Assembly (NCBI GenBank): GCA_003058525.1
Contig: QBVD01000008.1
Location: 1 to 37,723 of the forward strand
From: a gamma proteobacterium symbiont of Ctena orbiculata
Lineage (GTDB): Bacteria > Pseudomonadota > Gammaproteobacteria > Chromatiales > Chromatiaceae
DNA: 37,723 bases
Direction: 5' to 3'
The stretch's first letter is position 1. Every line of letters begins with the position of its first letter. Positions 317-15,111 of the stretch are shown one piece after another. The position numbers and the translations under genes are program-made. The notes beneath the pieces are model-generated. The model did no database searches, was not told where the DNA came from, and saw only the letters and a program-made list of their open reading frames with translations.

Positions 317-577
317 ATGAGTGCTGTGGACAACGCAGAACAACTTGAAGTTGATCCCCGGTTCATCGAGCAAGCCAGTCTCTGCCAGGATTGTCATCGC
401 TGTATCAAAGACCCCAACTTCCAACTTTGCAAGATCGATTACGTGACAGCGGCTGGGTCCGTTCTGTTCGTATTCAGTGATCAGTGCAAAAACTGCAATT
501 ACAAGGTATCGTTTTTCAATGGCACGGTCTGCGGATGTCCTGTGCGCAGAGAGATCATGGCAAAATATGGATTATAA
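317..577 (+). CDS. small cysteine-rich protein of unknown function
   Basis: An 86-residue soluble protein with eight cysteines in four groups: CQDCHRC near residue 23, a single Cys near 38, CKNC near 57 and CGC near 72. The pattern suggests a structural zinc site or an Fe-S cluster. CQDCH also fits the haem c motif CxxCH, but there is no signal peptide, so haem attachment is unlikely. The ATG at 317 directly abuts AAGAG, which is too close for a ribosome site; the in-frame GTG at 326 would have an AGAG about 9 bases upstream and may be the true start. I do not recognise the family. It lies between an IS fragment and another small orphan gene in AT-richer DNA. Confidence 0.5.
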   Translation: MSAVDNAEQLEVDPRFIEQASLCQDCHRCIKDPNFQLCKIDYVTAAGSVLFVFSDQCKNCNYKVSFFNGTVCGCPVRREIMAKYGL

Positions 578-1092: not shown

Positions 1093-1391
1093 CCTCACAG
1101 ACCTTCTTTCGAATAAAGTAGGGTGACATTTCAGAGATCAGACTGCCGATGCCTGTGTGCCCTTGTCAACAAAAAAGACATGAAAGAGTAATAATGAGAT
1201 GTTTTCATTTAGATCTAAATCCTGGTCATCGTAAACCCAAGTAACAATCACGACAGAAAAAACTATTTCAAAACGAGAGATATCTCCTTGTTTGTTTGGA
1301 TGTTTAACACTATTTTCTCCCGCTTTTCCATGTTGAACTGTCGACACATCGGTGCTCGGCAATTAACCGTTATTTCGAGGTGAATCAGCGT
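1093..1391. other. intergenic region upstream of the Mrp/complex I-like operon
   Basis: About 300 bases that are clearly more AT-rich than the following operon. A 74-codon minus-strand frame at 1138-1362 has no recognisable content and I do not call it. This region should hold the operon promoter, but I see no convincing -35/-10 pair. The GAGG at 1376-1379 is the probable ribosome site for the first operon gene at 1392. Confidence 0.4.
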
Positions 1392-1919
1392 ATGTCAGCC
1401 ACACCTGCTCAACAAGAAGAAGCCCAATTTTCCCATGGCCTGTTTCTGTTCGTCCTGATATTCCTGCTGTGGCTGATGCTCTCCGGCAACCTTGCTCTTG
1501 CTGAGGTTGTCACCGGCCTGGTTGTGGCTTCCGTGGTGACTCTGGCAAGCCGGCCCCATCTCCCTCTCTTTTCCGGCCTGCGCCTCTCTCCCGCTGCAAT
1601 CCTGCCCTTTATCAGCTACCTGGCGGTCTTCCTGGCAGCGCTCATACGCGCCAATCTCGATATGGCTCGACGCGTACTTTCTCCCTCTCTCCCTCTCAAT
1701 CCCGGCGTGGTCGAAGTCAAAACCAGGCTGAAATCTTCGCTAGGTCGGTTAATCCTGGCAAACAGCATCACCCTGACACCTGGTACGCTGACTGTGGACC
1801 TGCAAGGTGACAGCATCCTGATACATTGGGTCGACATTCCTCCGGGAAGCGATATCGAAAGCGCAACCCGTGATGTGACCGATATATTTGAACGTCATCT
1901 GGTAGGTTTCGTTAAATGA
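1392..1919 (+). CDS. mrpE: Mrp-type Na+/H+ antiporter subunit E (MnhE/MbxA-like)
   Basis: First gene of the respiratory complex operon; 175 residues from the ATG at 1392. A GTG at 1380 is in frame, but it sits directly on the GAGG ribosome site, so the ATG is preferred. The N-terminal half holds three hydrophobic segments (about residues 15-35, 35-55 and 70-95). The C-terminal half is a cytosolic domain with SITLTPGTLTVD, the hallmark of the MnhE family. In Mrp and Mbh/Mbx complexes this small subunit helps form the ion-translocating membrane module. It overlaps the next gene by 4 bases (ATGA), which implies translational coupling. Family assignment is firm; membership of an Mbx-type complex rather than a stand-alone antiporter is inferred from the downstream genes. 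Confidence 0.9.
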   Translation: MSATPAQQEEAQFSHGLFLFVLIFLLWLMLSGNLALAEVVTGLVVASVVTLASRPHLPLFSGLRLSPAAILPFISYLAVFLAALIRANLDMARRVLSPSLPLNPGVVEVKTRLKSSLGRLILANSITLTPGTLTVDLQGDSILIHWVDIPPGSDIESATRDVTDIFERHLVGFVK

Positions 1920-2182
1920 TACTGACATTAATGGAAACAGCCGCCCTTACGATGCTGGGTGGGGCGGTAATACTAAGTCTGCTTCGCTTGCTGATAGGAC
2001 CTACCGCGCCGGACCGGGTGGTAGCGGCGGATACCCTGGCAGTAATCACAACCTCGGGCCTGGTGGTACTGGCTGCGCTGCTTGGCAGTGCGCTCTATCT
2101 TGATGTGGCACTCATCTACGGCACCCTCGCTTTCGTCGGTGTTGTCGCTATTGCCCGCGCCATCGAGGGAAACGGATCATGA
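1916..2182 (+). CDS. mrpF: Mrp-type antiporter subunit F (MnhF/MbxB-like)
   Basis: An 88-residue membrane protein with three predicted helices. It carries the family signature GPTAPDRVVAADTL after the first helix, followed by the ALYLDVALIYGTLAFVG segment typical of MnhF/PhaF. The length is normal for the family. It overlaps mrpE and the following mrpG-like gene by 4 bases on both sides, so it is translated as part of the same unit. In Mrp and Mbh-type complexes subunit F packs with E and G at the sodium-translocating end of the membrane arm. Confidence 0.9.
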   Translation: MILTLMETAALTMLGGAVILSLLRLLIGPTAPDRVVAADTLAVITTSGLVVLAALLGSALYLDVALIYGTLAFVGVVAIARAIEGNGS

Positions 2183-2496
2183 GGCTACTGGCGGATATCA
2201 TATTGCTCATCGGCGCGACCTTCACATTACTCGGTGCCCTGGGACTGCTGCGCATGCCGGATGTCTATAACCGAATCCAGGCAGGAACCAAGGCAGTAAC
2301 ATTGGGTGCACTCTCCCTGTTATTGGGCATTGGACTGCTCTATCCGGAGTGGTGGTCCAAGCTGCTGGTCATTGCCCTAATGATCCTGGTCACCAATCCC
2401 ATCGGTTCATCCACTATCGCCAGGGCACTTATGATGGCGGGGGTGAAGCCGTGGAAAAAAGTTGAAACTGTAACCTCCGAACGGGATCAAGCATGA
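2179..2496 (+). CDS. mrpG: Mrp-type antiporter subunit G (MnhG/MbxC-like)
   Basis: A 105-residue protein with three membrane helices. The pattern GLLRMPDVYNRIQAGTK after the first helix is the MnhG/PhaG signature, and ILVTNPIGSSTIARA closes the third helix region. The C-terminal 20 residues are hydrophilic. It overlaps both neighbours by 4 bases. Together with E and F it forms the small-subunit part of the Mrp module. The assignment to the MnhG family is clear from the motif. Confidence 0.9.
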   Translation: MRLLADIILLIGATFTLLGALGLLRMPDVYNRIQAGTKAVTLGALSLLLGIGLLYPEWWSKLLVIALMILVTNPIGSSTIARALMMAGVKPWKKVETVTSERDQA

Positions 2497-2801
2497 GTGA
2501 TATAGAAGTCTGGATCCTACTGCTCCTGGCATTGATGATGCTGAGTGCCGCGGTGATGGTATTGTTGGTGAAGAACCATATCGCCGCAGTCGCCGCCGCC
2601 TCCGTTGTTTCCCTTGGCCTGGCTCTGCTCTTCGTCCTCATGAGAGCACCGGATGTCGCCATGACGGAAGCAGCCGTCGGGGTCGGATTGAGCAGCCTGA
2701 TCCTGGCGCTTGCATTGCGCCGCCTGGGCCTTTGGAAAGTGGACAGCGAGCAGGTGAAATATAATCTGCTGAGCCATGGCGGGGAGAACAAGGATGGGTA
2801 A
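2493..2801 (+). CDS. MbhD-like (DUF4040) membrane subunit
   Basis: A 102-residue membrane protein with about three helices. The centre reads RAPDVAMTEAAVGVGL, the conserved motif of the MbhD/DUF4040 domain, which corresponds to part of the C-terminal extension of MrpA. In Mbh, Mbx and Mbs operons this domain is a separate gene, as it is here. A separate MbhD-type gene, instead of a full MrpA, is one reason to read the operon as an Mbx/Mbs-type complex. The ATG overlaps the preceding stop by 4 bases, and its end overlaps the start of the MrpB-like gene by 8 bases. Confidence 0.85.
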   Translation: MSDIEVWILLLLALMMLSAAVMVLLVKNHIAAVAAASVVSLGLALLFVLMRAPDVAMTEAAVGVGLSSLILALALRRLGLWKVDSEQVKYNLLSHGGENKDG

Positions 2802-3480
2802 CCTCACCGGTCTGTTATTTGCCGGAGGCCTGGGTTTCATGCTGCTGGCGCTGGCCGGCGGACTCGACTTCGGCACCCCGCCGATGCTTGTTGGCAGTGA
2901 AATTCAGGCACATGCGCCACAGCAGACCGGGGCCGTAAACATCGTCACCTCGGTCGTGTTGGGATATCGCGCCATCGATACCCTGGGAGAACTCTCGATT
3001 CTTTTTGCAGCCGCCGTTTCCGCCGGTCTGATTTTGGGACGCCGGCATACCACTGCAGGCACGCAAACAAAAGGCGGTTTTATTCTATACACGGGAGGCT
3101 CGCTGCTCTTTCCGCTGATGATGACCATCGGTTTTTACATCATTTTTCACGGCCACCTGACCCCCGGTGGCGGCTTCCAGGGGGGCGTTATTCTGGCGGC
3201 GGCCTTCTTCCTCCCCCTATTGGCCCGACCCGGAGCCAGACTGCACCATAAGACCTTGAGTCTGATCGAGGGTTTCGCCGGCGCCAGTTTCATCCTTGTC
3301 GGCCTGCTGGCTATGATGGAGGGTAAGGCGTTTCTGCAACCCTTGCTGGTACAGGACACCCTGGGTCAGCTTGCCTCCGCCGGCACCTTGCCGCTGCTCT
3401 ATCTTGCGGTCGGCCTGAAGGTGGGCGCCGAACTGGCCAGCCTGCTGTCACGTCTGATACAGACAGAGGCACCGCAATGA
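2794..3480 (+). CDS. mrpB: MbhE-MrpB fusion-type subunit (MnhB domain)
   Basis: A 228-residue membrane protein with two recognisable parts. Residues 1-90 resemble MbhE, with VTSVVLGYRAIDTLGE as in the MrpA C-terminus and MbhE. Residues 95-225 form an MnhB domain with the signature FHGHLTPGGGFQGGVI. The frame extends 18 bases upstream to an ATG at 2776, but the GGGGAG at about 2780-2785 is well placed for the ATG at 2794, so I start there. In many operons MbhE and MbhF/MrpB are separate genes, so the joined form is a small peculiarity. The next gene begins inside its stop codon. Confidence 0.85.
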   Translation: MGNLTGLLFAGGLGFMLLALAGGLDFGTPPMLVGSEIQAHAPQQTGAVNIVTSVVLGYRAIDTLGELSILFAAAVSAGLILGRRHTTAGTQTKGGFILYTGGSLLFPLMMTIGFYIIFHGHLTPGGGFQGGVILAAAFFLPLLARPGARLHHKTLSLIEGFAGASFILVGLLAMMEGKAFLQPLLVQDTLGQLASAGTLPLLYLAVGLKVGAELASLLSRLIQTEAPQ

Positions 3481-3959
3481 TCTCCGTATTCGATCCGGAA
3501 TTGATTCTATACTCCACAGCGATAGGATTGATCGTGATCGGTCTGGCCGGCGTGGTCATGTCGTCTCACCTGTTTCGCATGGTACTGGCGTTGGTCATTG
3601 CAGAGGCCGGCGCAAATCTGATGCTGGTATTGGCGGGCTACCGCTGGGATGCGGTCGCACCGATACTCACCTCGCTTTCAGAACCTGCCGCGATGGTTGA
3701 CCCGGTGCCGCAAGCCCTGGTGCTCACCGCCATCGTCATCGGTGTCGGCATACAGGCCCTTGCAGTAAGTCTGTTGATCCGAATCCGCCAGTGCTACGCC
3801 ACGCTGGATCGTAAAGAGGCGGCTGAGCGCATGGATAGTGAGATCGCCGCCAGCATGGGTGCCGCAAGAGACGTGAGTCAGGATGCACCGCGGGGAGAGC
3901 GTCCCCTGCCCCCGATCCCTGCTGATCAAGTCAATACGCGAGGAGGGGATGCGCTATGA
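3477..3959 (+). CDS. mrpC: Mrp-type antiporter subunit C (NuoK/MnhC-like)
   Basis: A 160-residue membrane protein with three helices, homologous to NuoK of complex I and MnhC/MbxG. The third helix carries DPVPQALVLTAIVIGVG, the MnhC signature. The glutamate in LVIAEAGANLML is in the second helix, where NuoK carries a proton-pathway glutamate. After about residue 110 there is an extra hydrophilic tail of some 45 residues ending in RGERPLPPIPADQ, which is longer than NuoK and common in MnhC-like proteins. It overlaps the genes on both sides by 4 bases. Confidence 0.9.
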   Translation: MISVFDPELILYSTAIGLIVIGLAGVVMSSHLFRMVLALVIAEAGANLMLVLAGYRWDAVAPILTSLSEPAAMVDPVPQALVLTAIVIGVGIQALAVSLLIRIRQCYATLDRKEAAERMDSEIAASMGAARDVSQDAPRGERPLPPIPADQVNTRGGDAL

Positions 3960-5422
3960 ACGCCTATCTGGTGCTGACCATTGCGCTACCCCTGCTCGGC
4001 GCCTTCCTGCTGCCGATTCTGATGCGCAGCTCAATCGCGATCGCTCTCTGGAGCGGACCGGCCATCCTGATCTACGGCTGTTGGACGATTGCCGATATTT
4101 GGTTGCAAGGCTCGACACAACCAGTCTCCATTGCCATTGGCGGATTTGCTCCACCCCTGGGCATCAACCTCTATATCGATTCGCTCGCCCTGCTGTTCGC
4201 CTTTGCCGTACAGCTGCTCGGACTCATTTTCTGGCCATTTACGCTGGATCAGGACAGCGCCCGACGCCAGGCCCTGATGCTGCTGCTGGTGGCGGCCTCA
4301 ACGGGACTGGCCCTCTCCGGCGATCTGTTCAATCTCTATGTATTTTACGAACTGGCCGCTGTCGCCACATTTGGACTGGCCTCCGCATCCGGCCGTAGCG
4401 CTGCCTACGTGGCGACCCTGCGTTATCTCATACTCAGCGGCATCGGTTCGGTGTTGACTCTGTTCGGCATTGCGTTGATCTACGGCAAAACAGGTACCCT
4501 CAACCTGGCCCATCTGGCTCAGCTTGCGCCGGCGCAACTGAATGACGAATTGGGTCTCACTGCCTTTCTGAGCATCCTGATAGGCATCGGGGTAAAGGCA
4601 GAACTTTTCCCGGTGAATACCTGGGTGCCTGAGATCTATGCCACCGCCTCGACACGACTTTCGGCCTTTCTTGCCGGCCTGTTATCCAAACTCGCCCTGC
4701 TGATCATCCTGCGTCTGTTGTTGTTGATTTTCCACCAGCCCGAAGCGACGCAGGTAATGCTGATCCTCGGAATTCTGGGTGTTGTCAGCGGTGAATTGGC
4801 GGCATGGCGCGCGAAGGAGCTGCGGCGCATGTTGGCCTTCTCATCCATCGGCCAGCTGGGTGTAATGTTCATTGCCATGGCCTTGCCCGATGGCAAGGGA
4901 GTTCTGGCAGTGCTCGCACTTGCTCTCCATCATCTGATCATTAAATCGGGCCTCTTCATGTTGGCCGAGGATTGGGGGGGAGCCATTAAGCGGCTGCGCG
5001 GCAGCGCCAAAATGGCGCCGCTGGGGGCTGCATTGTTCGTGCTGTTCTCCCTCTCCCTCGTTGGCATGCCGCCGCTTCCCGGGTTTTGGGCGAAGTTCAC
5101 CCTGATCACCGAACTGGCAGGTCAGTCAGAACCCCTCTATCTGATAGGACTTGCCGTTTTTCTGCTGGCCACAGTGATCGAGGCCAGTTATCTGTTCCGC
5201 GTTGCCGCCATACTCTATCAGGATGCCCCGCGGGAAACCCTCGATCATGAGATACCAAAAAACGAAGGACTCTCCCTGGTGACCGCTACGTTGTTTGGTG
5301 CGGGATTGATCGCTGCCGCGGTGATGATCGCACCCGTTGGCGACAGTCTCAATACCATCGCCGCACAAGTGCAGGATGTTGACCTCTATATCAGTACCGT
5401 TTTCCCCGGAGGCAACCAATGA
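3956..5422 (+). CDS. mrpD: proton/ion-conducting subunit, MrpD/NuoN-like (MbxH-like)
   Basis: A 488-residue protein with about 14 membrane helices from the Proton_antipo_M family (NuoL/M/N, MrpD). The key ionisable residues of the channel are present: the helix-5 glutamate E132 in YVFYELAAV and the helix-7 lysine K214 in GVKAELFPVNTWVPE. In complex I and Mrp these residues form the proton path. This is the first of two antiporter-type subunits in the operon, matching the H/H' pair of Mbx/Mbs. It overlaps its neighbours by 4 bases. The MrpD label is by similarity and position; the exact ion (H+ or Na+) cannot be read from the sequence. Confidence 0.85.
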   Translation: MNAYLVLTIALPLLGAFLLPILMRSSIAIALWSGPAILIYGCWTIADIWLQGSTQPVSIAIGGFAPPLGINLYIDSLALLFAFAVQLLGLIFWPFTLDQDSARRQALMLLLVAASTGLALSGDLFNLYVFYELAAVATFGLASASGRSAAYVATLRYLILSGIGSVLTLFGIALIYGKTGTLNLAHLAQLAPAQLNDELGLTAFLSILIGIGVKAELFPVNTWVPEIYATASTRLSAFLAGLLSKLALLIILRLLLLIFHQPEATQVMLILGILGVVSGELAAWRAKELRRMLAFSSIGQLGVMFIAMALPDGKGVLAVLALALHHLIIKSGLFMLAEDWGGAIKRLRGSAKMAPLGAALFVLFSLSLVGMPPLPGFWAKFTLITELAGQSEPLYLIGLAVFLLATVIEASYLFRVAAILYQDAPRETLDHEIPKNEGLSLVTATLFGAGLIAAAVMIAPVGDSLNTIAAQVQDVDLYISTVFPGGNQ

Positions 5423-7296
5423 TTCTGACGCTTCTGGACGAACTGCTGCTCTTCTCCGGCGTTACCCTGCTGGTGGCGTTGACGATCGGGCGGGGCCTCG
5501 CGGCCGGCTGGATGGTTACGATCCTCTACGGTGGCCAGCTGCTCGCACTGACAAAGATGGCGGTACTCGGCTATGAAGGTGGTGCCATCGCCTCCTCCCT
5601 CTCTTTCGAGGTGATGGGGCAGACGCTGAACTGGCGATTCGATGCATTGAGCTGGTTCTTCGCCCTGATCACCCTCGGCTCCGCCCTGCTCAGCAGCTGG
5701 TTTTCATGCGGCGCCTGGGAGCGCGACTATATCAAGCAGGGTGGCAATATCTGGCTCTTCCACACCGCAATGGCATTGAACGTCTTCACCATGCTGATCC
5801 TGCTCGCCAGCGGCGACCTGCTCTCACTGTTTATCGGTTGGGAGCTTGTAAGCTGGGCGGGCTTTCTGCTCATGGCCCTGGCCGGTGGCGTAGCCACAAA
5901 GGCAGCCATGCGCTATATCACATACGCAATGGCGGGGGGCATGGCGGTCTTCGGTGGCCTTGCCCTGGTCTATAGTGCATCCGGTTCATTGCAGCTCGAA
6001 GCGGTTATCACGGCAGTGGAACAGATCAGCACCACCAAACTCTGGCTGCTGGTGATCCTCTTCGGTGGCGGCTTCGGCATCAAGATGGGATTGTTGCCCT
6101 TCCATCTGTGGCAGGCGCCCGCGTATGCCGAGACTCCCGGCCCCGGTAGTGCCTTCCTGGGCGCGATCTCTTCCCGCATGGGTCTGTTCGCCATTTTATT
6201 GGTTCTGGTAAAACTCTTCGGCATCGTCAACATCGATAATTTAAAAGTGCCATTTACGCTCATAGATGCCCGCGACCTGCTGGCATGGCTCGCCGTGTTG
6301 ACGATCATCCTCCCCACCTTCACCGCCATGAAACAGAACGATGCCCGTCACCTGCTGGCATGGCACGGCATTGGACAGGGTGGCTATATGTTGCTGGGCA
6401 TCGTAGTAGCGGATGCCATGGGTGGCGCAGGCGGGCTGCTGCATGTCTTCAACCACGCCACCTATCAGGCTGCGCTGTTCATGGCCGTGACTGCGGTCAT
6501 CTACCGTACCGGCACCTCCGATCTGAACAAACTCGGCGGGCTCGTGGTACGCATGCCGCTCTCATTCATGGTTCTATTGATAGGCATCATCGGCCTGGCG
6601 GGGCTACCGCCGATGAACGGCTTCGTTTCGAAATGGCTGGTTTATCGTTCACTGCTGAATCAAGGCATGCCCCTACTCTTCCTGGCCGCTGTGATCGGCA
6701 CATTGGGCACCATCCTCTCCGTCTACAAATTGATTCATAACATCTTCCTGGGCCAGCTGCGAATGGAACATGAACATGTCGCCGAGGCCCCCTGGAGTAT
6801 GATGATCCCCATGTTGATTCTCAGCGCGATCATATTCATTACCGGCCTGCTGCCGGGTATACCGCTGGAATGGATTGCATCAGTCCTGCAGACAGTCGGT
6901 CTGCCGGTCCCGCAATATACGCTGGGTGGCGTGGAATCGAACAGCGGTTCCCTGGACATGATCTGGGTGATCGGCGTCCTGTTCGCCGGCTTCGGCATCG
7001 GTGCTGTTATCTTCTACTCTGCCGGGCGCAGTAAGCGCGTCCATCAACTGGACAACTATGCCGGTGGACACTTCCTCTCTGCCGATGTGCGTTATCAGTA
7101 CAGCGATAACTTCTATGCCGGTTTAATGCACCTCATAGGGGGCTGGTATCGGGGCAGCTTCCTCTGGCTGGAGCGCAGCATCACCTCGATGATCGAATTT
7201 CTCTCCCTGGGTATGCAAGGCCTCTACCGTCGGGCAAACGCAGAGTTTTATCTCCTCAGCACGGCGCTATTCGTTATCGCCTGGGCGGTGATCTGA
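5419..7296 (+). CDS. second proton/ion-conducting subunit, NuoL/MrpA-like (MbxH'-like)
   Basis: A 625-residue membrane protein of the NuoL/MrpA superfamily. Channel residues are kept: E142 in FIGWELVSWAGF and K222 in GFGIKMGLLPFHLW, followed by APAYAETPGPGSAFL. There is a core of about 14 helices, a C-terminal soluble stretch near residues 535-570 and a final membrane segment near 605-625. The extension is shorter than the full MrpA C-terminus, and the MbhD, MbhE and MrpB parts are separate genes here. That fits the second antiporter subunit H' of Mbx/Mbs. The ATG of the next gene overlaps its stop by one base. Confidence 0.85.
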   Translation: MILTLLDELLLFSGVTLLVALTIGRGLAAGWMVTILYGGQLLALTKMAVLGYEGGAIASSLSFEVMGQTLNWRFDALSWFFALITLGSALLSSWFSCGAWERDYIKQGGNIWLFHTAMALNVFTMLILLASGDLLSLFIGWELVSWAGFLLMALAGGVATKAAMRYITYAMAGGMAVFGGLALVYSASGSLQLEAVITAVEQISTTKLWLLVILFGGGFGIKMGLLPFHLWQAPAYAETPGPGSAFLGAISSRMGLFAILLVLVKLFGIVNIDNLKVPFTLIDARDLLAWLAVLTIILPTFTAMKQNDARHLLAWHGIGQGGYMLLGIVVADAMGGAGGLLHVFNHATYQAALFMAVTAVIYRTGTSDLNKLGGLVVRMPLSFMVLLIGIIGLAGLPPMNGFVSKWLVYRSLLNQGMPLLFLAAVIGTLGTILSVYKLIHNIFLGQLRMEHEHVAEAPWSMMIPMLILSAIIFITGLLPGIPLEWIASVLQTVGLPVPQYTLGGVESNSGSLDMIWVIGVLFAGFGIGAVIFYSAGRSKRVHQLDNYAGGHFLSADVRYQYSDNFYAGLMHLIGGWYRGSFLWLERSITSMIEFLSLGMQGLYRRANAEFYLLSTALFVIAWAVI

Positions 7297-8192
7297 TGTC
7301 AGCCACAGAACTGCTTATCGAACTGACCCTGATGCCCCTGATCGCTTTCATCGTCGGCATGATGATGGTACTGATGATGCGGCGTATCGCCGCCAGGCTG
7401 CAGCGGCGTATCGGCCCCCCCTTCTTCCAACCACTGTATGACATCGTCAAACTGCACAGTAAAAGGACCCAGGTATCACACGGTCTGATCCACGACATCG
7501 GCATCGTCATGGCAATGGGGGGATATATCGCTGCTGAGACCCTGCTCCCGGTACCCGGCATGAACGGTATTGCGGAAAAAGGCGGGATCATCACCCTGCT
7601 CTATCTGATGATGATCCCTTCCCTGGGTCTCGCGCTGGGTGTGGGGCAATGCGCCAATCCTAACGGCTCAATCGGGATTGCCCGCGCCCTGACCGCCATG
7701 CTCGCCTACGACATCCCGCTGGTGATCGTGGTGTTTGGAGTCGCCTACGCCGCTGGTACGACCAACCTCATCGACATCATCGCCACCCAACAAGCCGGCG
7801 GATTCGAAACCTGGGGAGCGGTAGAGATGCCGCTGTTGGCCATCGCGGGTCTTGTCGCCATGCATGCTTCCCTCGGAAAGCAGCCCTTTGAAATCTACAT
7901 AGCGCCGGCGGAAATAGCCACCGGCCCGATGGTCGAAATGGGTGGCAAGTATCTTGGCGGTCTGTTCGTGATGCAGTGTTTTCAGCTCTACACCACCTCC
8001 GTACTCTATGTCTGCCTGTTTCTCGGCGGTGGTAGCACCTGGTTCGATTTTCTGCTGAAGAGTTTCCTGGTATTGGCGATACCGGTCAGCATCGCCTATC
8101 TGTTCCCACGTTACCGTACCGAGGACCTACTGCGGCTGATGTGGAAATGGCCGGTGATGCTGGGACTGATCGGTATTGCGTTTGTTATTTAA
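7296..8192 (+). CDS. complex I subunit 1 / NuoH-like membrane anchor (MbxM-like)
   Basis: A 298-residue protein with about eight helices of the NADH dehydrogenase subunit 1 family (NuoH, HycD, EchB, MbhM). Two family segments are visible: RIGPPFFQPLYDIVKL near residues 38-53, and KQPFEIYIAPAEIATGPMVE near residues 192-211. The latter corresponds to the acidic loop that couples the hydrophilic arm to the membrane arm. This subunit connects the Mrp-like membrane module to the electron-transfer arm encoded next. It is shorter than classic NuoH (about 320 or more residues) and closer to the hydrogenase-type M subunits. It is followed by a 74-bp gap holding a repeat element, the first break in an otherwise overlapping gene string. 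Confidence 0.9.
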   Translation: MSATELLIELTLMPLIAFIVGMMMVLMMRRIAARLQRRIGPPFFQPLYDIVKLHSKRTQVSHGLIHDIGIVMAMGGYIAAETLLPVPGMNGIAEKGGIITLLYLMMIPSLGLALGVGQCANPNGSIGIARALTAMLAYDIPLVIVVFGVAYAAGTTNLIDIIATQQAGGFETWGAVEMPLLAIAGLVAMHASLGKQPFEIYIAPAEIATGPMVEMGGKYLGGLFVMQCFQLYTTSVLYVCLFLGGGSTWFDFLLKSFLVLAIPVSIAYLFPRYRTEDLLRLMWKWPVMLGLIGIAFVI

Positions 8193-8260
8193 TTTTGAGT
8201 TGTGAATTATGAATTGATGTGTGTGCAGCGAATACCGAAATTCAAAATTCATAATTAAAA
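8193..8260. repeat. AT-rich inverted-repeat element, copy 1 (degenerate)
   Basis: Fills the gap between the NuoH-like and NuoB-like genes. AATTATGAATT at 8205-8215 and AATTCATAATT at 8246-8256 form a perfect 11-bp inverted repeat. Between them lies GTGTGTGCAGCGAATACCG, a decayed form of the GTGAGCGAAGCGAACACCG core seen in the better-preserved copies at 9550, 12831 and 27356. Confidence 0.65.
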
Positions 8261-8269
8261 GGAGCTATG

Positions 8270-8983
8270 ATGAGCTCAATAAAACAGATTCCGGTGGTAG
8301 AAACAAAGCGAACCAATCCACTGGCACGCGTGTTCGACGACTTGGTGCGCTTCTGCCGCTCCCGCTCCCTCTTCATCCTGCACTACTGTACCGGTTGCGG
8401 AGCGATCGAACTGCCACCGGCGATGACCTCCCGCTTCGACATGGAGCGTCTGGGCATTCAACCCATGGTCTCGCCTCGTCAGGCGGATATCCTGTTGATC
8501 ACCGGCTATGTCTCGATCAAGACCCTGAAACGGGTGATCCTGACCTATGAACAGATGGGATCTCCGAAGTATGTCATCGGTATCTGTTCCTGCACCGTCA
8601 ACGGCGGCATGTATTGGCAAAGCTACGCCACCGCAAAAAAACTCGACGAATACATGCCGGTGGACCTCTACATCGCCGGCTGCATGCCGAGACCCGAGGC
8701 GGTCATCACCGGTCTGCAACAGCTGATGGACCGGATTCACTCAGGCCAGGCGAACAGCTGGGAGGATTACTACCGCAATTATGATTACTACCTTGGCAAT
8801 CAGCAAAAGCTGTTTGGCGAGGATTGGCAGACACCCACAGATGTAATCAGCGAAGCAAATCACTATGACCTGCTGAGCGAGGGGACCCTGGGTGAGCATA
8901 CCCGCCTGCTGGAGCAACACCAGAAACCTCTGGAGGCATTGGATATGCGCCTGGGTCACGAGTTAAAGGAGCCACGCAAATGA
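8270..8983 (+). CDS. NuoB-like small subunit (MbxJ-like), Fe-S
   Basis: A soluble 237-residue subunit of the NuoB/NiFe-hydrogenase small subunit family, expected to hold the cluster closest to the membrane. Counting from the ATG at 8270, the cysteines are C40 and C43 (HYCTGCGAIEL), C106 and C108 (GICSCTVNGG) and C138 (AGCMPRP). NuoB has a tandem CC at the first site and Mbh-type hydrogenases have CxxC two residues before IE. Here CxxC is shifted by one and a Gly sits in the usual second-Cys place, so the cluster ligation may be unusual. The in-frame ATG at 8267 is only 2 bases after AAAAGGAG; 8270 has better spacing. The next gene overlaps by 4 bases. It lacks the N-terminal signal of uptake hydrogenases. 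Confidence 0.85.
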   Translation: MSSIKQIPVVETKRTNPLARVFDDLVRFCRSRSLFILHYCTGCGAIELPPAMTSRFDMERLGIQPMVSPRQADILLITGYVSIKTLKRVILTYEQMGSPKYVIGICSCTVNGGMYWQSYATAKKLDEYMPVDLYIAGCMPRPEAVITGLQQLMDRIHSGQANSWEDYYRNYDYYLGNQQKLFGEDWQTPTDVISEANHYDLLSEGTLGEHTRLLEQHQKPLEALDMRLGHELKEPRK

Positions 8984-9549
8984 GTAAGGAAATCGCCCAC
9001 TGGCTGGATGATCTGCTGGAGGAGATCGAGGGCATCGTGGTGCGACGCAAGAGCAGCCGCCGGGTACGCGTGGACGTGCCGGCCGATGCCCTGCCGGCCT
9101 TGCTTGAGTTGCTGCAGGGACGTGCCGGGTATATTCATCTCTCCGCCATCAGCTGTGTCGACTGGATTGATGATGATGAGTTCGAGCTGGTCTACCATGT
9201 CTGGTCCTACGAGAGTCACTCCCTGGTCTCTGCACATATCCGTATCGCCCGGGAGCCGGGGGTCTATCTGTCGGTCTATGACCTCTACCAGCCTGCCGCG
9301 TTTTTCGAACGGGATATTCACGAAATGTACGGCATCCACTTCGAAGGCAGTCCGAATATGGAGAAATTTATCCTCACCGAATGGGACGGACCACCGCCGA
9401 TGCGCAAGGAGTTCGACAGTGAAGCCTACATCAACGAACACCTGAGCTGGCAGAACTACAACCCGGAGTGGTTGCAGGAACTCGTGGCCGAGGGTGGTGG
9501 TGTGATTATTCCGCCTGAGGAACAGCGGTTTAGTCAGAAGAAAAAATAG
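8980..9549 (+). CDS. NuoC-like 30-kDa subunit (MbxK-like)
   Basis: A 189-residue soluble protein of the complex I 30-kDa family. The diagnostic segment FERDIHEMYGIHFEGSPNME lies near residues 108-127 and matches the family pattern ERE.yDlfGi.F.GHP. The C-terminus, with EYINEH-like EAYINEHLSW and IIPPEEQ, is hydrophilic. It carries no cofactor in known relatives and serves as a structural partner of the NuoB- and NuoD-type subunits. It overlaps the NuoB-like gene by 4 bases and is followed by a 150-bp gap filled by a repeat element. Confidence 0.88.
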   Translation: MSKEIAHWLDDLLEEIEGIVVRRKSSRRVRVDVPADALPALLELLQGRAGYIHLSAISCVDWIDDDEFELVYHVWSYESHSLVSAHIRIAREPGVYLSVYDLYQPAAFFERDIHEMYGIHFEGSPNMEKFILTEWDGPPPMRKEFDSEAYINEHLSWQNYNPEWLQELVAEGGGVIIPPEEQRFSQKKK

Positions 9550-9684
9550 TTTATTTAGTTTTTAGTTTTTAGTTTTTAGTTTTTAGTTTGATGAGTGTGC
9601 TCCGCACACGTTTATTTACAAGCGTGAGCGAAGCGAACACCGACAACTCATAACTAAAAACTCAAAACTCAAAACTCAAAACTT
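9550..9684. repeat. AT-rich inverted-repeat element, copy 2
   Basis: Left side: several AGTTTTT heptamer repeats (about 9559-9589). Centre: the hairpin GTGTGC-TCC-GCACAC (9595-9609) followed by GTGAGCGAAGCGAACACCG (about 9624-9642). Right side: AACTCATAACTAAAAACTC and AAAACTC heptamers (to about 9684). Left and right sides are reverse complements, so the whole element can fold into a long stem. It separates the NuoC-like and NuoD-like genes. Confidence 0.85.
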
Positions 9685-9699
9685 ACGAGCGCAGCGAGT

Positions 9700-10842
9700 A
9701 TGAGACCCGAAAACTACGAAGCCCAACGCCAGCCGCCGAGCAATGAATTCGAGCTCAATTTCGGCCCCAACCATCCCGGTATCGAAGGCAACTATGCCTT
9801 GAAGGTCAAACTGCACGGGGATGTAGTGCTGGAAGCCAGGGCTGACGGCGGATATCTCCATCGAGGTTTCGAAAAGCTGATGGAACAGCGGCTATGGATT
9901 CAAAATATCGCGCTTGTGCCGCGTATCTGTGTACCCGACCCATCCCCCATGGAACTCTGCTACTCCATGGCCGTAGAGCAGCTCTGCGGTTTGCATGTCC
10001 CACAAAGGGCCAACTGGATTCGCGTCATGCAGTTGGAGTTGTCACGTATCGCCGCCCATCTGTTCACCTTCGGCGGACATGCCGCGACCACCGGCATGTA
10101 CAGTACCATGTATTGGGGGGTGGCGGATCGCGATCTGATCCTGGACCTGTTCGAGGAGTTCACCGGGGGCCGTGTCTACAGCATCTACAATATCCCCGGT
10201 GGTGTGAGGCGGGAATTGCCGCCCGGGTTTCTGCAGCGGGTGAGTGATACCCTCGACTATGTCGAATCCCGTCTGCCTGACTATGATGATCTCTTCTTCA
10301 AAAACCAGGTTTTCGTAAAACGTGCCAAGGGCGTCGGTGTTTTGAGTCAGGAACAGGCCCTCGCCTGGGGCGTCACGGGACCGAACCTGCGCGCCACCGG
10401 TCTCGCGTTCGATGTACGCAGGGACGATCCCTATCTGGTCTATGATCAACTCGATTTTGAGATTCCAACCGAAGAGAGCGGCGACGCCTGGGCCCGTACC
10501 CTGGTGAGACGGCACGAACTGATGGAGAGCATCCGCATTGTTCGTCAGGTAGTCGAAACACTCCCGGATATCCACGGCCCGATTCGCGCACCCATACCCA
10601 ACCCGCTGGCCTGGAATGTACCGGCTGGCGAGACCTATACCCGGGTCGAATCATCCAAGGGCGAGCTCTGCTACTACGTGGTATCGGACGGCGGCCCCAA
10701 ACCCTACCGTGTACACGTGCGGGGACCCTCGTCGATGCATGCGGTACAGGTCCTGGAAAAACTATCGGTAGGCTCGCGTATCGAGGATATTGCGCAGACT
10801 ATGTTCTCGCTTGATGCATGTCCTCCCGAGGTTGATCGATGA
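9700..10842 (+). CDS. NuoD-like large subunit (MbxL-like) with incomplete NiFe ligands
   Basis: A 380-residue soluble subunit of the NuoD/NiFe-hydrogenase large subunit family. The N-terminus has FGPNHPGIEG and GYLHRGFEKL, as in NuoD. Active NiFe enzymes carry CxxC at both ends. Here the first motif is RICVPD, with C77 kept and D80 in place of the second Cys. The C-terminal motif is LDACPPEVDR, with C374 kept and E377 replacing the second. With two of four ligands lost, Ni-Fe binding is not expected. The EVDR end without a cleavable tail also resembles NuoD and rules out hydrogenase-type maturation. From memory, archaeal Mbx/Mbs large subunits also lack a full NiFe set. The ATG at 9700 follows directly on a repeat and has a poor ribosome site. 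Confidence 0.88.
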   Translation: MRPENYEAQRQPPSNEFELNFGPNHPGIEGNYALKVKLHGDVVLEARADGGYLHRGFEKLMEQRLWIQNIALVPRICVPDPSPMELCYSMAVEQLCGLHVPQRANWIRVMQLELSRIAAHLFTFGGHAATTGMYSTMYWGVADRDLILDLFEEFTGGRVYSIYNIPGGVRRELPPGFLQRVSDTLDYVESRLPDYDDLFFKNQVFVKRAKGVGVLSQEQALAWGVTGPNLRATGLAFDVRRDDPYLVYDQLDFEIPTEESGDAWARTLVRRHELMESIRIVRQVVETLPDIHGPIRAPIPNPLAWNVPAGETYTRVESSKGELCYYVVSDGGPKPYRVHVRGPSSMHAVQVLEKLSVGSRIEDIAQTMFSLDACPPEVDR

Positions 10843-10859
10843 AGAGCACAGCTTCTGAA

Positions 10860-10918
10860 CGGTGCGGCAAGCCGCACCCTACATCACAATTATCGGTAGG
10901 GTGCGGCTTGCCGCACCG
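10860..10918. repeat. GTGCGGC-type palindrome pair (perfect 23-bp inverted repeat)
   Basis: Arms at 10860-10882 and 10896-10918 are perfect reverse complements with a 13-base spacer. Each arm also contains its own palindrome, GGTGCGGCAAGCCGCACC or its complement, flanked by CTAC/GTAG. This GTAGGGTGCGGC type is, from memory, common between genes in sulfur-oxidising and related gammaproteobacteria. It lies between the NuoD-like and NuoI-GltD genes and could form a strong RNA hairpin. A smaller hairpin, CAACGGA (10928-10934) with TCCGTTG (10940-10946), follows. Confidence 0.85.
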
Positions 10919-10972
10919 GAGCCCATCCAACGGACTGCATCCGTTGTCACAACAAGTCAAGAGACTTAGCCG

Positions 10973-12829
10973 ATGACAAAGCCAATTCAAAACTCAAAAT
11001 TCAAGCTTCAAAATTCGCCAATCGGCTACGAGGACCACGGCTCCATCCTCTCCCCGCTTAAGGCGCTCCAGTTTTTCGCCCGCAAACCCGTAACCGTGCC
11101 GCTGGAACCCAGACCGGCGGCAGCAAACTATCGCGGTTTTCACTTGAATGATCACGAGAAATGCATTGGCTGCAGTTCCTGCCAAAAGGTCTGCGACAAT
11201 GCCGCGATCACCATGGTGAAGGTCCCTCACCTGCCGGAAGATCCGGTCAACGGGATTCGCAATCTCCGCCCCGCCATCGACTACGGACGTTGTTGCTGGT
11301 GCGCCCTGTGCGTCGATATCTGCCCCACCGGGGCCATCTCTCTCTCCAGGGAGTATGTCCACACCTGTACCCAGGCAGAGATCGACAGCTATTTCATTCT
11401 GCCCGACGAAACCGGTATTCACGGCAAACACTACGGCCTGGGCTGGCAGAAGAGTGTCGACTCCGATCTGCTTGACCTGGAAAGGCAAGCGATGGAAGAG
11501 CTGAGTCCAGAGACCAGGATCGACAATTTCGATGAGATCGTCCATGGATACAGCGAACAACAGGCCGTGATCGAGGCCTCGCGCTGCGTCCAGTGCGGTA
11601 TGTGCCACGACGCCTGCCCGACTCATATGGATGCGCCGGAATACATCCGCGCTATCTGGCAGGGGAAACCTGAAGAGGCGGTACGCTGGATCTACAATTC
11701 CAATCCCTTTTCCCATGTCTGCGGCCGCGTCTGTACCCACCGATGCGAAGAGGCCTGTTCCATCGGCCGACGGGGTGAACCGGTTGCCATTCAATGGCTG
11801 AAGCGATACGCCATGGATGCGGTTGATCACGAACGAGTCAAACAGATCGTCGCGGAGCAGAAGGCCGACTACCTGAGTGGCAAACAGATTGCAATTATCG
11901 GTGCCGGGCCTGCCGGTCTCACAGCCGCATTCGATCTGGTGCGAAAGGGCCATCAGGTAACCGTATTCGAGGCCAGGGATGCAGCGGGTGGCATGCCCAG
12001 ATACGGCATTCCTTCCTATCGTCTGCCCTACGATATGCTCGACCGGGACATCGATGTCATCACATCGATGGGTGTGAAAATCAAGACCAACACCAGGATT
12101 GGCGTGGATATCAGCATGCAGCAGCTGCAAGCCGATTACGATGCGGTCGTCCTGGCGATCGGCCTGCACCTGGGGCGCTCGACCCGGATACCTGGAGCGG
12201 ATCATAAACAGGTCGCAAAGGCAGTGGATCTGTTGCGCATGATTACCAACGATGAAAAATTCAAACTGCCGAAAAAGGCCGTGGTGATCGGTGGCGGTAA
12301 TGTGGCCATGGACATTGCCCGCAGCATCGCCCGCATGCAGCGGCGTGCACATGGGCAGGTGACAGTGACGGTAACCGCCCTGGAAGACAAGGCGCACTTC
12401 CTGGCCGACCCTGTGGAGGTCAAAGAGTGTCTCGAGGAGGGGATCGAAATTTTCGATGCGCGGGGCCCGCAGGCCTGCATTGTCGAAAGGGGCCGTCTGA
12501 AGGGTCTGAAGACCTGGAAGGTCCGCTCGATTTTCGATGACCAGGGTCGCTTTTCACCCGCCTATGACGAATCTGACGAGCAGATCCACGAAGGCGACAT
12601 GGTGATCGAGGCCATTGGCCAGATGTCGGATGTCTCCTTACTCGGAGAAGCCCTCAGTGAAGAACTGGAGTGGCACCGGGGACGTCTCAAAGTGGATGAA
12701 AACGGCCGCACATCGGTCGATTGGCTCTGGGCCGCCGGCGACTGCGTCAATGGGCCGGACGTGGTGCATGCGGTTGCCGACGGCCACCGGGTGGCGGCAA
12801 GTATTGAAACATGGCTTGAAAATAAATAG
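10973..12829 (+). CDS. NuoI-like ferredoxin fused to GltD-type FAD/NAD(P)H oxidoreductase
   Basis: A 618-residue soluble fusion. Residues 55-125 form a NuoI/MbhN-like domain with two [4Fe-4S] motifs: C64, C67, C70, C74 (CIGCSSCQKVC), and C107 or C108, C110, C113, C117 (CCWCALCVDICP). Residues 195-280 match the N-terminal Fe-S domain of glutamate synthase small subunit (CVQCGMCHDACP, then CGRVCTHRCEEAC). The FAD-binding GAGPAG is at 310-315, the NAD(P)-binding GGGNVAMD near 430, and the final GDCVNGP near 592 closes the FAD fold. It probably feeds electrons from NAD(P)H into, or takes them from, the complex I-like arm, replacing NuoE/F/G. The first 15 residues are encoded by repeat-like DNA, so the true start may be later. 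No strong ribosome site is seen. Last gene of the operon. Confidence 0.88.
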   Translation: MTKPIQNSKFKLQNSPIGYEDHGSILSPLKALQFFARKPVTVPLEPRPAAANYRGFHLNDHEKCIGCSSCQKVCDNAAITMVKVPHLPEDPVNGIRNLRPAIDYGRCCWCALCVDICPTGAISLSREYVHTCTQAEIDSYFILPDETGIHGKHYGLGWQKSVDSDLLDLERQAMEELSPETRIDNFDEIVHGYSEQQAVIEASRCVQCGMCHDACPTHMDAPEYIRAIWQGKPEEAVRWIYNSNPFSHVCGRVCTHRCEEACSIGRRGEPVAIQWLKRYAMDAVDHERVKQIVAEQKADYLSGKQIAIIGAGPAGLTAAFDLVRKGHQVTVFEARDAAGGMPRYGIPSYRLPYDMLDRDIDVITSMGVKIKTNTRIGVDISMQQLQADYDAVVLAIGLHLGRSTRIPGADHKQVAKAVDLLRMITNDEKFKLPKKAVVIGGGNVAMDIARSIARMQRRAHGQVTVTVTALEDKAHFLADPVEVKECLEEGIEIFDARGPQACIVERGRLKGLKTWKVRSIFDDQGRFSPAYDESDEQIHEGDMVIEAIGQMSDVSLLGEALSEELEWHRGRLKVDENGRTSVDWLWAAGDCVNGPDVVHAVADGHRVAASIETWLENK

Positions 12830-12982: not shown

Positions 12983-12998
12983 TACACCGGGGTTGGTT

Positions 12999-13502
12999 AT
13001 GAAAGAAGGACAGAGTAGCGGTTACCAAAAGCTTAAGTCGAAAAAAAGCCTGGGAGAAATTCTCGAGGTTGCGATCGAGTTCGAACGGACGGCAAGGGAC
13101 TTCTATACAGCCTTGATCCCCAAGGTCAGCAAGCAGATCCGCTACCTGGTGGAGGAACTCGCCGACGAGGAACAGCGCCATTTCGATCTCTTCAACGAGC
13201 TCAGGTCACGGCCCGATATCGAGCATCATATTCAGATGATGGTAGAGGCACCGGCCAGTGACAAACGCTTTTCGGATTGTATCCACCTCCCGGAGCTGGG
13301 GGATAAGCCTGACGACCAGACCGTGCTGCAATATGCCCTGGGCCGCGAGCACGCGGCCATGGAGCAGTACCATGCACTGGCAGAAAGCACAGAAGCGGGA
13401 CCGGTCAAGGATCTGTTTATGTTCCTCGCCAACGAGGAGACCCTGCATAAGAACCAGTTGGAAAAACTCTATTACGAGACGATCCACAGTGGTGGGGTTT
13501 AA
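12999..13502 (+). CDS. rubrerythrin/ferritin-like diiron protein
   Basis: A 167-residue soluble four-helix protein. The diiron ligand pattern is duplicated: E27 or E29 in AIEFERTARDFY with E58 and H61 in DEEQRHF, and E117 in GREHAAMEQY with E147 and H150 in NEETLHKNQL. There is no C-terminal rubredoxin domain, so it is a short ferritin-like or erythrin-type member. Relatives reduce peroxide or store and handle iron. The start is the ATG at 12999, with GGGG at 12989-12992 upstream; an in-frame TTG at 12993 is less likely. It is separated from the operon by a repeat element and may be expressed on its own. Confidence 0.85.
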   Translation: MKEGQSSGYQKLKSKKSLGEILEVAIEFERTARDFYTALIPKVSKQIRYLVEELADEEQRHFDLFNELRSRPDIEHHIQMMVEAPASDKRFSDCIHLPELGDKPDDQTVLQYALGREHAAMEQYHALAESTEAGPVKDLFMFLANEETLHKNQLEKLYYETIHSGGV

Positions 13503-13680: not shown

Positions 13681-15111
13681 GTGAAAAAACGACTCATAAG
13701 GCAGGCTGTTCAGCCTGTCTCGACTCTCCTTGAGCTTTTAACAACACTTTCAGGTTTACTACTTTTATTCCTTTTATATGCGACACTCAACCCGGTTTTG
13801 GCTAACGACGTCAAGTCATACACACTTGATGAGGCGGTTGCCACGGCGTTGGAAAAGAATCGACTGAAGCTCATTTCACAAAAATCGGTGGCGATTGCGG
13901 AAGCCCAGTACAAACAGGCCCGCTCCACCTATTGGCCGACACTCAGCCTGAACGCCAATTTCATTCGCCGGGATGAGACCGCTATATTCGAGTTCCCGGC
14001 CCAGCGATTCGATGTGGCCCCTGGCATGCTGCCACCGGTGGAAGTACCTGCGCTGGATGTGGATCTGTTGGGCAGGGACACCTCCCACTACTCACTCGAA
14101 ATGACTTACCCGCTGTATACCGGGGGTAAGCGTTCCAGTCTGATCGAACAGGCGCGACTCGGTATCGATATTGCCACCAAGGAGGTCCATCGAACCAACC
14201 TGCAGATCGTGCAGGATGTGAAGCGCTATTACTATGCCGCACTCTATACCCGGCAGCTTGCAGCCCTGGCCGAAGATATCACCATCTCCTTCGAGGTGTT
14301 GAGAGATATCACCCAGGCCTTCTACGACGGCGGTTCAGAATCGGTCAACAAACTCGACCTGCTGCAAAGCAAGCTTGCGCATACCCTGGCTGAGGCGACC
14401 TATGAAGAACTCGCAGCAAAACACCAGGCTGCTCTGGCCGCACTGTCCTTTACCATGGGGCTCGAATGGCAGGAACAGATTCAGCTCGGCACACAGGAGT
14501 ATCCGGACGCTGCGAACAGTCTTGAGCTTGACCGGCTGATCGGTCAGGCAGAGAAATTCAATCCCCAGATTGAACAGCTGGCGCTGGCCGTGGAGGCCTA
14601 TGAGGCCAAAGTGGACGAAGCCAGGAGTGACCACTACCCTACCATCGGCCTGATGGCCTCCGTGGATGAGTTCAATAATGATCTGGATGGTGGCCTGAGT
14701 GTTGAAGAAAACGAACACTCCTGGCAGTTGGCCATCGGCATGGAACTGAAGCTGTTTGACGGCGGCCTGATCAAACATCGTATTGCGGCAGCCAAAGCGG
14801 AAAAGGCGCAAAAAGAGCAGCAGAGGCTACTGCTCAGTGAAAGCACCGCGACACAGATCAAGCACCTTTTCATCAAGACCGGAGCTGCCCGCAAGCAGGT
14901 CGACATCACCCAACAGGCAGTCGAGACCTCGCAACAAAACCTTGACCTGAGCAATCGCGCCTACCAGACCGGCGCGGTAAAAACCGAAAAGATAATCGAG
15001 GCAAATCTGCTGGATGCCATGGTACGCGCCAACCTTGCCCGCGCCTCTCATGATCAGGCGCTCCATCTGGCTGAAATTGCCTACCTCTTGGGGAGCGAGG
15101 TTATCGAGTAA
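13681..15111 (+). CDS. TolC-family outer membrane efflux protein
   Basis: A 476-residue protein starting at a GTG, with GAGG 5-8 bases upstream. A long basic then hydrophobic N-terminus (hydrophobic about residues 17-41) is a signal peptide. The mature part has two OEP repeats: YTLDEAVATALEKN with YKQARSTYWPTLSLNANF and YPLYTGGKRSSLIEQA in the first half, and HYPTIGLMASV with LKLFDGGLIKHRI in the second. These are the usual marks of trimeric TolC-type exit ducts. No inner membrane pump or membrane fusion protein is adjacent. Instead it is followed after 18 bases by a binding protein and a c-di-GMP enzyme, an unusual partner set. Confidence 0.88.
   Translation: MKKRLIRQAVQPVSTLLELLTTLSGLLLLFLLYATLNPVLANDVKSYTLDEAVATALEKNRLKLISQKSVAIAEAQYKQARSTYWPTLSLNANFIRRDETAIFEFPAQRFDVAPGMLPPVEVPALDVDLLGRDTSHYSLEMTYPLYTGGKRSSLIEQARLGIDIATKEVHRTNLQIVQDVKRYYYAALYTRQLAALAEDITISFEVLRDITQAFYDGGSESVNKLDLLQSKLAHTLAEATYEELAAKHQAALAALSFTMGLEWQEQIQLGTQEYPDAANSLELDRLIGQAEKFNPQIEQLALAVEAYEAKVDEARSDHYPTIGLMASVDEFNNDLDGGLSVEENEHSWQLAIGMELKLFDGGLIKHRIAAAKAEKAQKEQQRLLLSESTATQIKHLFIKTGAARKQVDITQQAVETSQQNLDLSNRAYQTGAVKTEKIIEANLLDAMVRANLARASHDQALHLAEIAYLLGSEVIE

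Follow-up and report, generated by a model that had tools for sequence, protein, structure and literature searches.

What would a complete Mbx/MBS-type complex do in a sulfur-oxidising clam symbiont whose genome carries dsr genes? The question is raised by a stretch of 37,723 nucleotides, hereafter the window, which corresponds to positions 1 to 37,723 of contig QBVD01000008.1 (assembly GCA_003058525.1) from a gammaproteobacterial symbiont of Ctena orbiculata; the genome, of 112 contigs and 4.74 Mb, is that of a Candidatus Thiodiazotropha. Searches of open reading frames (ORFs) and domains showed that 13 plus-strand genes, at positions 1380-12829, encode a complete complex of this type, and that a rubrerythrin-like gene is the 14th of the cluster. 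Judged from its sequences, the complex is a member of the Mbx/MBS family, best known from the thermophilic archaeon Pyrococcus furiosus and its membrane-bound sulfane reductase (MBS). Its function, at a probability that we put at roughly 55%, would be that of an ion-translocating NAD(H):sulfane-sulfur oxidoreductase (NAD, nicotinamide adenine dinucleotide) with a built-in pyridine-nucleotide module, working in dissimilatory sulfur oxidisers. The genes themselves reveal a membrane arm resembling Mrp and a peripheral arm of the MBS type, four [4Fe-4S] motifs and a flavin adenine dinucleotide (FAD)/NAD(P) domain in subunit N, and the loss of both the quinone site and the [NiFe] site.

In the PDB, the NuoD-like subunit L (9700-10842, MbsL role) matched the MBS chain 6u8y_L best, with 397 bits; Nqo4 followed with 265, and MbhL reached 131. 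MBS chains were likewise the top matches, ahead of the next structure, for the NuoB-like subunit J with the proximal cluster (8267-8983, MbsJ role; 6u8y_J, 227 versus 122 bits), the NuoH-like membrane anchor M (7296-8192, MbsM role; 6u8y_M, 174 versus 70) and the antiporter-like subunits H (3956-5422; 6u8y_H or MbsH, 212 versus 138) and H' (5419-7296; 6u8y_X or MbsH', 178 versus 139), all encoded on the plus strand. The two antiporter-like subunits also matched the models NF006241 (274 bits) and NF006419 (394 bits), respectively, both below cut-off. Trees of the NuoB-, NuoD- and NuoH-like proteins, a check proposed in a first-pass annotation of this DNA, placed the window proteins with P. furiosus MbsJ, MbsL and MbsM, with supports of 81/84, 100/99 and 100/93, and apart from Nuo and from Mbh, Hyc and Hyf, as that annotation had predicted. 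The references, not all of which were present in every tree, comprised Escherichia coli Hyc, Hyf and Nuo, P. furiosus Mbh and MBS, Thermus Nqo4, another bacterial NuoD, plastid and cyanobacterial Ndh and the Nuo of the window genome itself; archaea were represented by a single MBS and a single Mbh, Fpo and Thermotoga Mbx were not among the references, and long reference branches were flagged.

Residue counts refer to distinct sequences, the window included, and the MBS numbering follows PMC7684303 (this and the other papers are cited from excerpts). The proximal-cluster cysteines 28, 93 and 123 were found in all 55 NuoB-like sequences and C25 in 52 of them. A CTGC stands where complex I has its tandem CC, and aligns without gaps to the short CxxC motif of MbsJ. 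Among the 62 NuoD-like sequences, the quinone-site residue H38 of Nqo4 is replaced by E (59/62) or T (3/62), and its Y87 by V in every case. The missing H38, Y87 and tandem CC, the absence of NuoE, NuoF and NuoG from the cluster (ORF list and domain searches) and the position outside Nuo in the trees led us to reject canonical complex I. A divergent NADH:quinone oxidoreductase, that is, a complex I variant, would account for the homology of NuoD, B, C, H and I and for the two generic NCBIfam NuoB models and one NuoD model that scored above cut-off, yet the same replacements and trees make it very unlikely, as does the separate canonical complex I that the window genome encodes, with NuoE, NuoF and NuoG, on contig C109. 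Because this normal complex I is found elsewhere in the genome, the Mbx operon is an addition.

An energy-converting [NiFe] hydrogenase of the Mbh/Hyc kind shares the general architecture, and two of the four NiFe cysteines are left: MbsL C85 is kept in 60/62 and C385 in 59/62 NuoD-like sequences. The other two cysteine columns hold D/E and E (E. coli rows set aside), and E21 of MbhL is absent (HPGIEG in the window, HPGLEE in MbhL, by eye). With only two of the four cysteines, and with trees that set the proteins apart, a group 4 [NiFe] hydrogenase was rejected, and its probability is close to nil. Family searches over part of the window's ORFs brought up no hydrogenase maturation gene. This absence, like that of NuoE, NuoF and NuoG, had been remarked on in the first-pass annotation, with which both results agree. 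In the membrane arm, the pump residues E219 and K393 of MbsH are K and K in the window, and K217 and K399 of MbsH' are both K. A suspected loss of K399 in H' was discarded, since alignment with the MbsH' chain showed that the site occupied by Q is K344 and that K399 is kept.

The last gene of the complex, N (10973-12829, plus strand, 618 amino acids), joins a NuoI part in the MbsN role to an NfnB/GltD-like FAD-NAD(P)H module. The protein matches PRK13984 (NF010590) at profile positions 10-608 of 611 with 826 bits, below the curated cut-off of 946; in the PDB, its residues 23-137 match MbsN and its residues 172-615 match NfnB (4ylf_B, 235 bits). The two N-terminal [4Fe-4S] motifs and the FAD/NAD(P) domain of the NfnB-like module are present, and 16 cluster cysteines, eight in the NuoI part and eight in the NfnB part, occur in all 72 distinct N sequences. 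Since PRK13984 exceeds its cut-off in the Thermotoga maritima control genome, the fusion of NuoI with a GltD-like protein is not in itself new. The YRR motif of NfnB is replaced by an ALE-type motif in 70 of the 72 N sequences (67 with E and 3 with Q in third place) and kept in loci L085 and L087; Lamprocystis purpurea DSM 4197 has the ALE type. In DsrL, NADP(H) has been linked to the presence of YRR, and NAD(H) to the absence of this motif (PMC7596348). Because the ALE-type motif replaces the NADPH-binding YRR, NAD(H) is predicted for N. The DsrL-like flavoprotein encoded beside the window genome's dsr genes has TSLF at the YRR-like position (by eye, unaligned), and its 18 NCBIfam matches include no DsrL-named model.

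The rubrerythrin-like gene that follows N (12993-13502, plus strand) encodes a di-iron protein with a PF02915 match of 48 bits and no NCBIfam match. Of the 65 loci with room to show it, 58 have such a gene in the same orientation, starting less than 400 bases after N, and because of this adjacency it is counted as the last gene of the cluster. Three of the other seven loci lack it, three have it further on, and in L066 it overlaps N by 1-2 bases. The Glu/His ligand pattern E31, E60, H63, E119, E149 and H152 is kept in 72-73 of 73 rubrerythrin rows. This pattern and the place of the gene indicate that the protein is probably a peroxide or oxygen remover near the exposed cluster.

To describe the spread of the cluster, loci were collected with the N protein; of the 69 found, 68 (L003-L070) were used, and L071, a 39-residue match, was left out. 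Of the 47 loci that extend at least 9.7 kb upstream of N, 37 have the full set of 12 upstream genes with order and strand unchanged, which excludes a chance arrangement. The remaining ten comprise L050 and L054, which hold none of these genes, L058 and L070, which have only a downstream NuoH-like gene, and six loci lacking one to nine of the genes. N-type loci were found in lucinid and tubeworm symbionts, Sedimenticola, Lamprocystis, Thiohalocapsa, Thiobacillus, Parasulfuritortus, Thiomargarita and Parabeggiatoa, and in single metagenome-assembled genomes of Hyphomicrobiales and Magnetospira. The N of the window is 96% identical to that of Ca. T. endolucinida. Three loci of giant sulfur bacteria were read in detail (L050, L058, L070); in them the rubrerythrin gene adjoins N, and other Mbx genes are not adjacent. 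The single NuoH-like gene of L058 and L070 is some 6-7 kb further downstream. A search of plasmid records with the NuoD query gave 247 matches, all below 60% identity, and the 15 matches listed are from Sinorhizobium, at about 38%.

The fused N was present in 18 of 369 genomes drawn from the class (best E 2e-261 to 6e-96; partial in G290 and G208), and a NuoD-like Mbx gene lay beside it in 16 of the 18 short loci, those of G290 and G208 showing none. All 18 genomes carry dsrA, 16 over the curated cut-off and two (G264 and G208) as partial matches; the background in this draw is 117/369 at E 1e-90 or better, 112 of them over cut-off. The association between dsrA and the complex has p 4e-10 over genomes, 1e-8 over families (15/15 versus 59/182) and 2e-7 when only matches over cut-off are counted, deeper kinship being ignored. 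A draw of 398 genomes from the phylum added five with the fused N, all outside the class and all with dsrA over cut-off; the dsrA background was counted in the class draw alone, and in both draws dsrA of any type, oxidative or not, was counted. The window genome itself has two dsrA copies, at C79:14089-15291 and C102:79691-80893 (L123 and L124). One lies in an operon with dsrB-, E-, F-, H-, C-, M- and K-like genes and the DsrL-like protein; alongside the other is only a dsrB-like match, the search there having been confined to that gene.

These genomes also bear on an Rnf-like role, in which the complex would be a ferredoxin:NAD+ oxidoreductase running in either direction, with ferredoxin at the NuoI part and the flavoprotein taking the electrons, in the service of nitrogenase or of enzymes of the reductive tricarboxylic acid (rTCA) cycle. 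Older papers describe Mbx as a ferredoxin:NAD(P)+ oxidoreductase (PMC4596419, PMC4595116, PMC3608648), the nucleotide module is truly fused here, and nifH is present in the window genome. Among 80 dsrA genomes, namely all 18 with the complex and 62 of the 99 without it, however, neither nifH (5/18 with versus 8/62 without, p 0.15) nor rnfC (16/18 versus 48/62, p 0.50) was significantly associated with the complex, which therefore does not follow N2 fixation and is no substitute for Rnf. Such a path would also skip the proximal cluster, presumably the start of coupling, and we regard this role as improbable. The window genome has four rnfC matches over cut-off, on contigs C109, C67 and C15; two are on C109, together with nifH and the nuo operon.

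A second type of core was found in seven genomes, G218, G233 and G264 of the gamma class and G373, G376, G388 and G448 outside it. Its NuoD is 46-50% identical to that of the window, with T, V and Y at the positions of H38, Y87 and C385 (6/7 read; L120 left out). An ALE-type N next to a rubrerythrin 50-69% identical to the window's is present in five of the seven genomes; the other two have a YRR-type N, with a weak rubrerythrin match (28%) in one and none found in the other. The loci in which the ALE-type N and rubrerythrin stand by a divergent core, with Tyr for C385 in the rows read, are L106 (G218) and L118-L121 (G373, G388, G376, G448). Relative to the MBS branch, the two proteobacterial cores join first in the NuoD tree (91/68), while MBS joins the window's core in the NuoH tree (95/86) and, weakly, in the NuoB tree (71/32). 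In the N tree, the ALE-type N of the second core joins that of the first (95/97), with a borderline approximately unbiased test (p 0.047) and a very long sole outgroup. The pattern suggests that the NAD-type N and the rubrerythrin have been combined with both core types, perhaps by a swap of N.

If the complex is an NAD(H):sulfane-sulfur oxidoreductase, two electrons would be exchanged between NAD(H) and the FAD of N, and would travel singly through the N clusters to the three-cysteine proximal cluster of the NuoB-like subunit. At this open [4Fe-4S] cluster an S-S bond would be made or broken, and the reaction would be coupled, through the NuoH-like anchor and the two antiporter-like subunits, to the movement of H+ or Na+. 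During sulfide oxidation the most likely direction would be the reduction of NAD+, paid for by the ion-motive force and cheaper than passing via quinol and complex I; the reverse may also occur, with NADH dumped on stored sulfur under anoxia. The first-pass annotation had offered a link of NAD(P)H, or of a polysulfide-type reaction, to ion pumping. That proposal is upheld and sharpened, the flavin/NAD module being fused to NuoI and of NAD(H)-type appearance, and the residues of the polysulfide site being kept. As a tentative extension, the complex might provide low-gear reverse electron transport in dsr-type oxidisers: the ion-motive force would drive electrons from sulfide or sulfane sulfur, taken up at the open [4Fe-4S] cluster, through the MBS core onto NAD+, bypassing quinone and complex I, with an NAD(H) module and a rubrerythrin guard that have been joined to two Mbx cores.

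Several points weigh against the proposed function, the first of them energetic. Ferredoxin has a potential of about -480 mV and NAD one of about -320 mV. With ferredoxin, the MBS reaction yields 41 kJ per two electrons, and two protons are pumped (PMC7684303). From these values we estimate that electron transfer from NADH to polysulfide gives only about 10 kJ per two electrons, less than the 29 kJ needed for two ions at about 150 mV. A coupled complex of the NAD type should therefore run towards NAD+ reduction and draw on the ion gradient; alternatively, a forward run could be weakly coupled or use a more oxidising sulfur substrate. The position of MbsH' K344 is Q in 49 of 52 H' rows, so the ion stoichiometry may differ from that of MBS, which weakens the energetic case for a direction. 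The use of NAD(H) is itself a prediction from the cofactor motif. Neither NAD(P)H nor reduced ferredoxin led to H2S formation by membranes of T. maritima (PMC9431562). The Mbx genes of the Riftia symbiont have co-expression neighbours in common with the rTCA cycle, those of most sulfur oxidation genes being shared with the Calvin-Benson-Bassham cycle (PMC11636981), a poor fit to a role in sulfide oxidation. The link to dsrA may come from shared ancestry or habitat, and 99 of the 117 dsrA-bearing genomes in the class draw lack the complex.

Some of the same evidence would suit sulfur respiration alone, in which NADH from stored glycogen or polyhydroxyalkanoate would be dumped on elemental sulfur (S0) or polysulfide under anoxia, with little or no pumping. 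Loci of the N type occur in Lamprocystis, Thiomargarita and Parabeggiatoa, which store sulfur globules. The P. furiosus MBS reduces polysulfide (PMC7684303), sulfur respiration is presumed in Beggiatoa 35Flor (PMC4959497), S0 raises mbxA expression 4.36-fold in T. maritima (PMC9431562), a rise that also speaks for the proposed oxidoreductase, and the rTCA-side co-expression in the Riftia symbiont points the same way. The estimated energy, however, would be little for driving two pumps forward, yet the entire pumping arm has been retained, and we consider a purely respiratory role somewhat unlikely.

The remaining genes of the complex are likewise on the plus strand. Gene E (1380-1919, with an alternative start at 1392) encodes an MrpE-like protein in the MbsA role (PF01899, 129 bits), gene F (1916-2182) an MrpF-like protein in the MbsB role (PF04066, 59 bits) and gene G (2179-2496) an MrpG-like protein in the MbsC role (PF03334, 85 bits). 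They are followed by an MbhD-like gene (2493-2801, MbsD role; PF13244, 68 bits), the MbhE/MrpB-like gene E/B (2776-3480, MbsE role; PF04039, 83 bits, and PF20501, 23 bits, below the cut-off of 27) and the MrpC/NuoK-like gene C (3477-3959, MbsG role; PF00420, 67 bits). The NuoC-like subunit K (8980-9549, MbsK role) matches NF004738 with 78 bits, below cut-off. According to the ORF list, the first nine genes, from E to the NuoH-like M, each overlap the next. The first-pass annotation had assigned thirteen Mbx-like roles to plus-strand genes in this order; all were found by ORF and domain searches at the coordinates it gave, in 13 genes and not in the 12 it counted. The Pyrococcus mbx gene order that it named agrees with ours as far as that order is printed in PMC3608648, and the subunit list of PMC7684303 agrees as well. 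It was right to place an Mbx-type complex in a proteobacterial genome; this is not unprecedented, a putative Mrp-Mbx having been described in the Riftia symbiont (PMC11636981). Two features absent from it are the fusion in N and the membership of the rubrerythrin-like gene in the cluster.

Upstream of the operon, an ORF of 86 amino acids (317-577, plus strand) is cysteine-rich and has no Pfam match; among loci with the E gene on the plus strand, 3 of 43 reach more than 1,200 bases upstream of E. Downstream, an outer-membrane efflux protein (13681-15111) adjoins a group of phosphonate-binding-like periplasmic proteins (15130-16032, 18528-19448 and 19448-20380, plus strand), two recognised by domain scan and the third by eye, with a GGDEF-EAL protein (16029-18458) in their midst. 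Two very large candidate multiheme c-type cytochromes, with nine CxxCH motifs each and a PKD domain in one, are encoded on the minus strand at 20440-23334 and 33113-36550. The plus-strand ORF at 29507-31345 joins a GGDEF domain to a prenyltransferase-type alpha-alpha toroid domain.

By what route sulfide-dependent bacteria make NADH at low cost is a standing question. A complex in which MBS sulfane chemistry is joined to its own NAD(H) module would offer a direct candidate for making NADH from sulfide, or for the respiration of stored sulfur, in clam and tubeworm symbionts and in purple and giant sulfur bacteria. In the evolution of complex I, the finding extends the MBS/Mbx branch from thermophiles into mesophilic proteobacteria, and L. 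purpurea is a cultured host that carries the complex. Bacterial MBS/Mbx is known in Thermotogota and others (PMC9431562, PMC10356935, PMC4596419, PMC4595116, PMC3608648). Among the open-access literature matches listed, judged from excerpts, only PMC11636981 names Mbx in a sulfur oxidiser, and none was found to describe the fused N of NAD type, the rubrerythrin attached to the cluster or the association with dsrA.

Five known systems come closest to the complex. The putative Mrp-Mbx of Candidatus Endoriftia is very probably encoded by the same operon as in the window, its contig L064 having homologs of NuoD, fused N and rubrerythrin; PMC11636981 gives S0 reduction as the role elsewhere, calls function and direction in the symbiont unknown and, in the excerpts, is silent on an NAD(H) module and on a rubrerythrin. 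The 'putative oxidoreductase' family PRK13984 has the same fusion of NuoI with a GltD-like protein over nearly its full length, but T. maritima exceeds the cut-off that the window protein misses. NfnB (NfnL) and DsrL share the FAD/NAD(P) domain and the two N-terminal [4Fe-4S] motifs, and DsrL-1 likewise lacks YRR, whereas here the module is fused to NuoI in a membrane complex whose cluster holds no NfnA partner. The genome's own complex I on C109 has homologous NuoB, C, D, H and I and antiporter subunits and differs in its NuoE, NuoF and NuoG and its quinone-site residues. The P. furiosus MBS (formerly Mbx; PDB 6U8Y) is alike in its 13 roles and their order, its proximal cysteines, C85 and C385, and its lack of a quinone or NiFe site. 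It differs in three ways: its MbsN is a chain of 208 residues where the window's N carries a fused FAD/NAD(P)H module, the window's cluster has gained a rubrerythrin-like member, and the host here is a dsrA-bearing proteobacterium.

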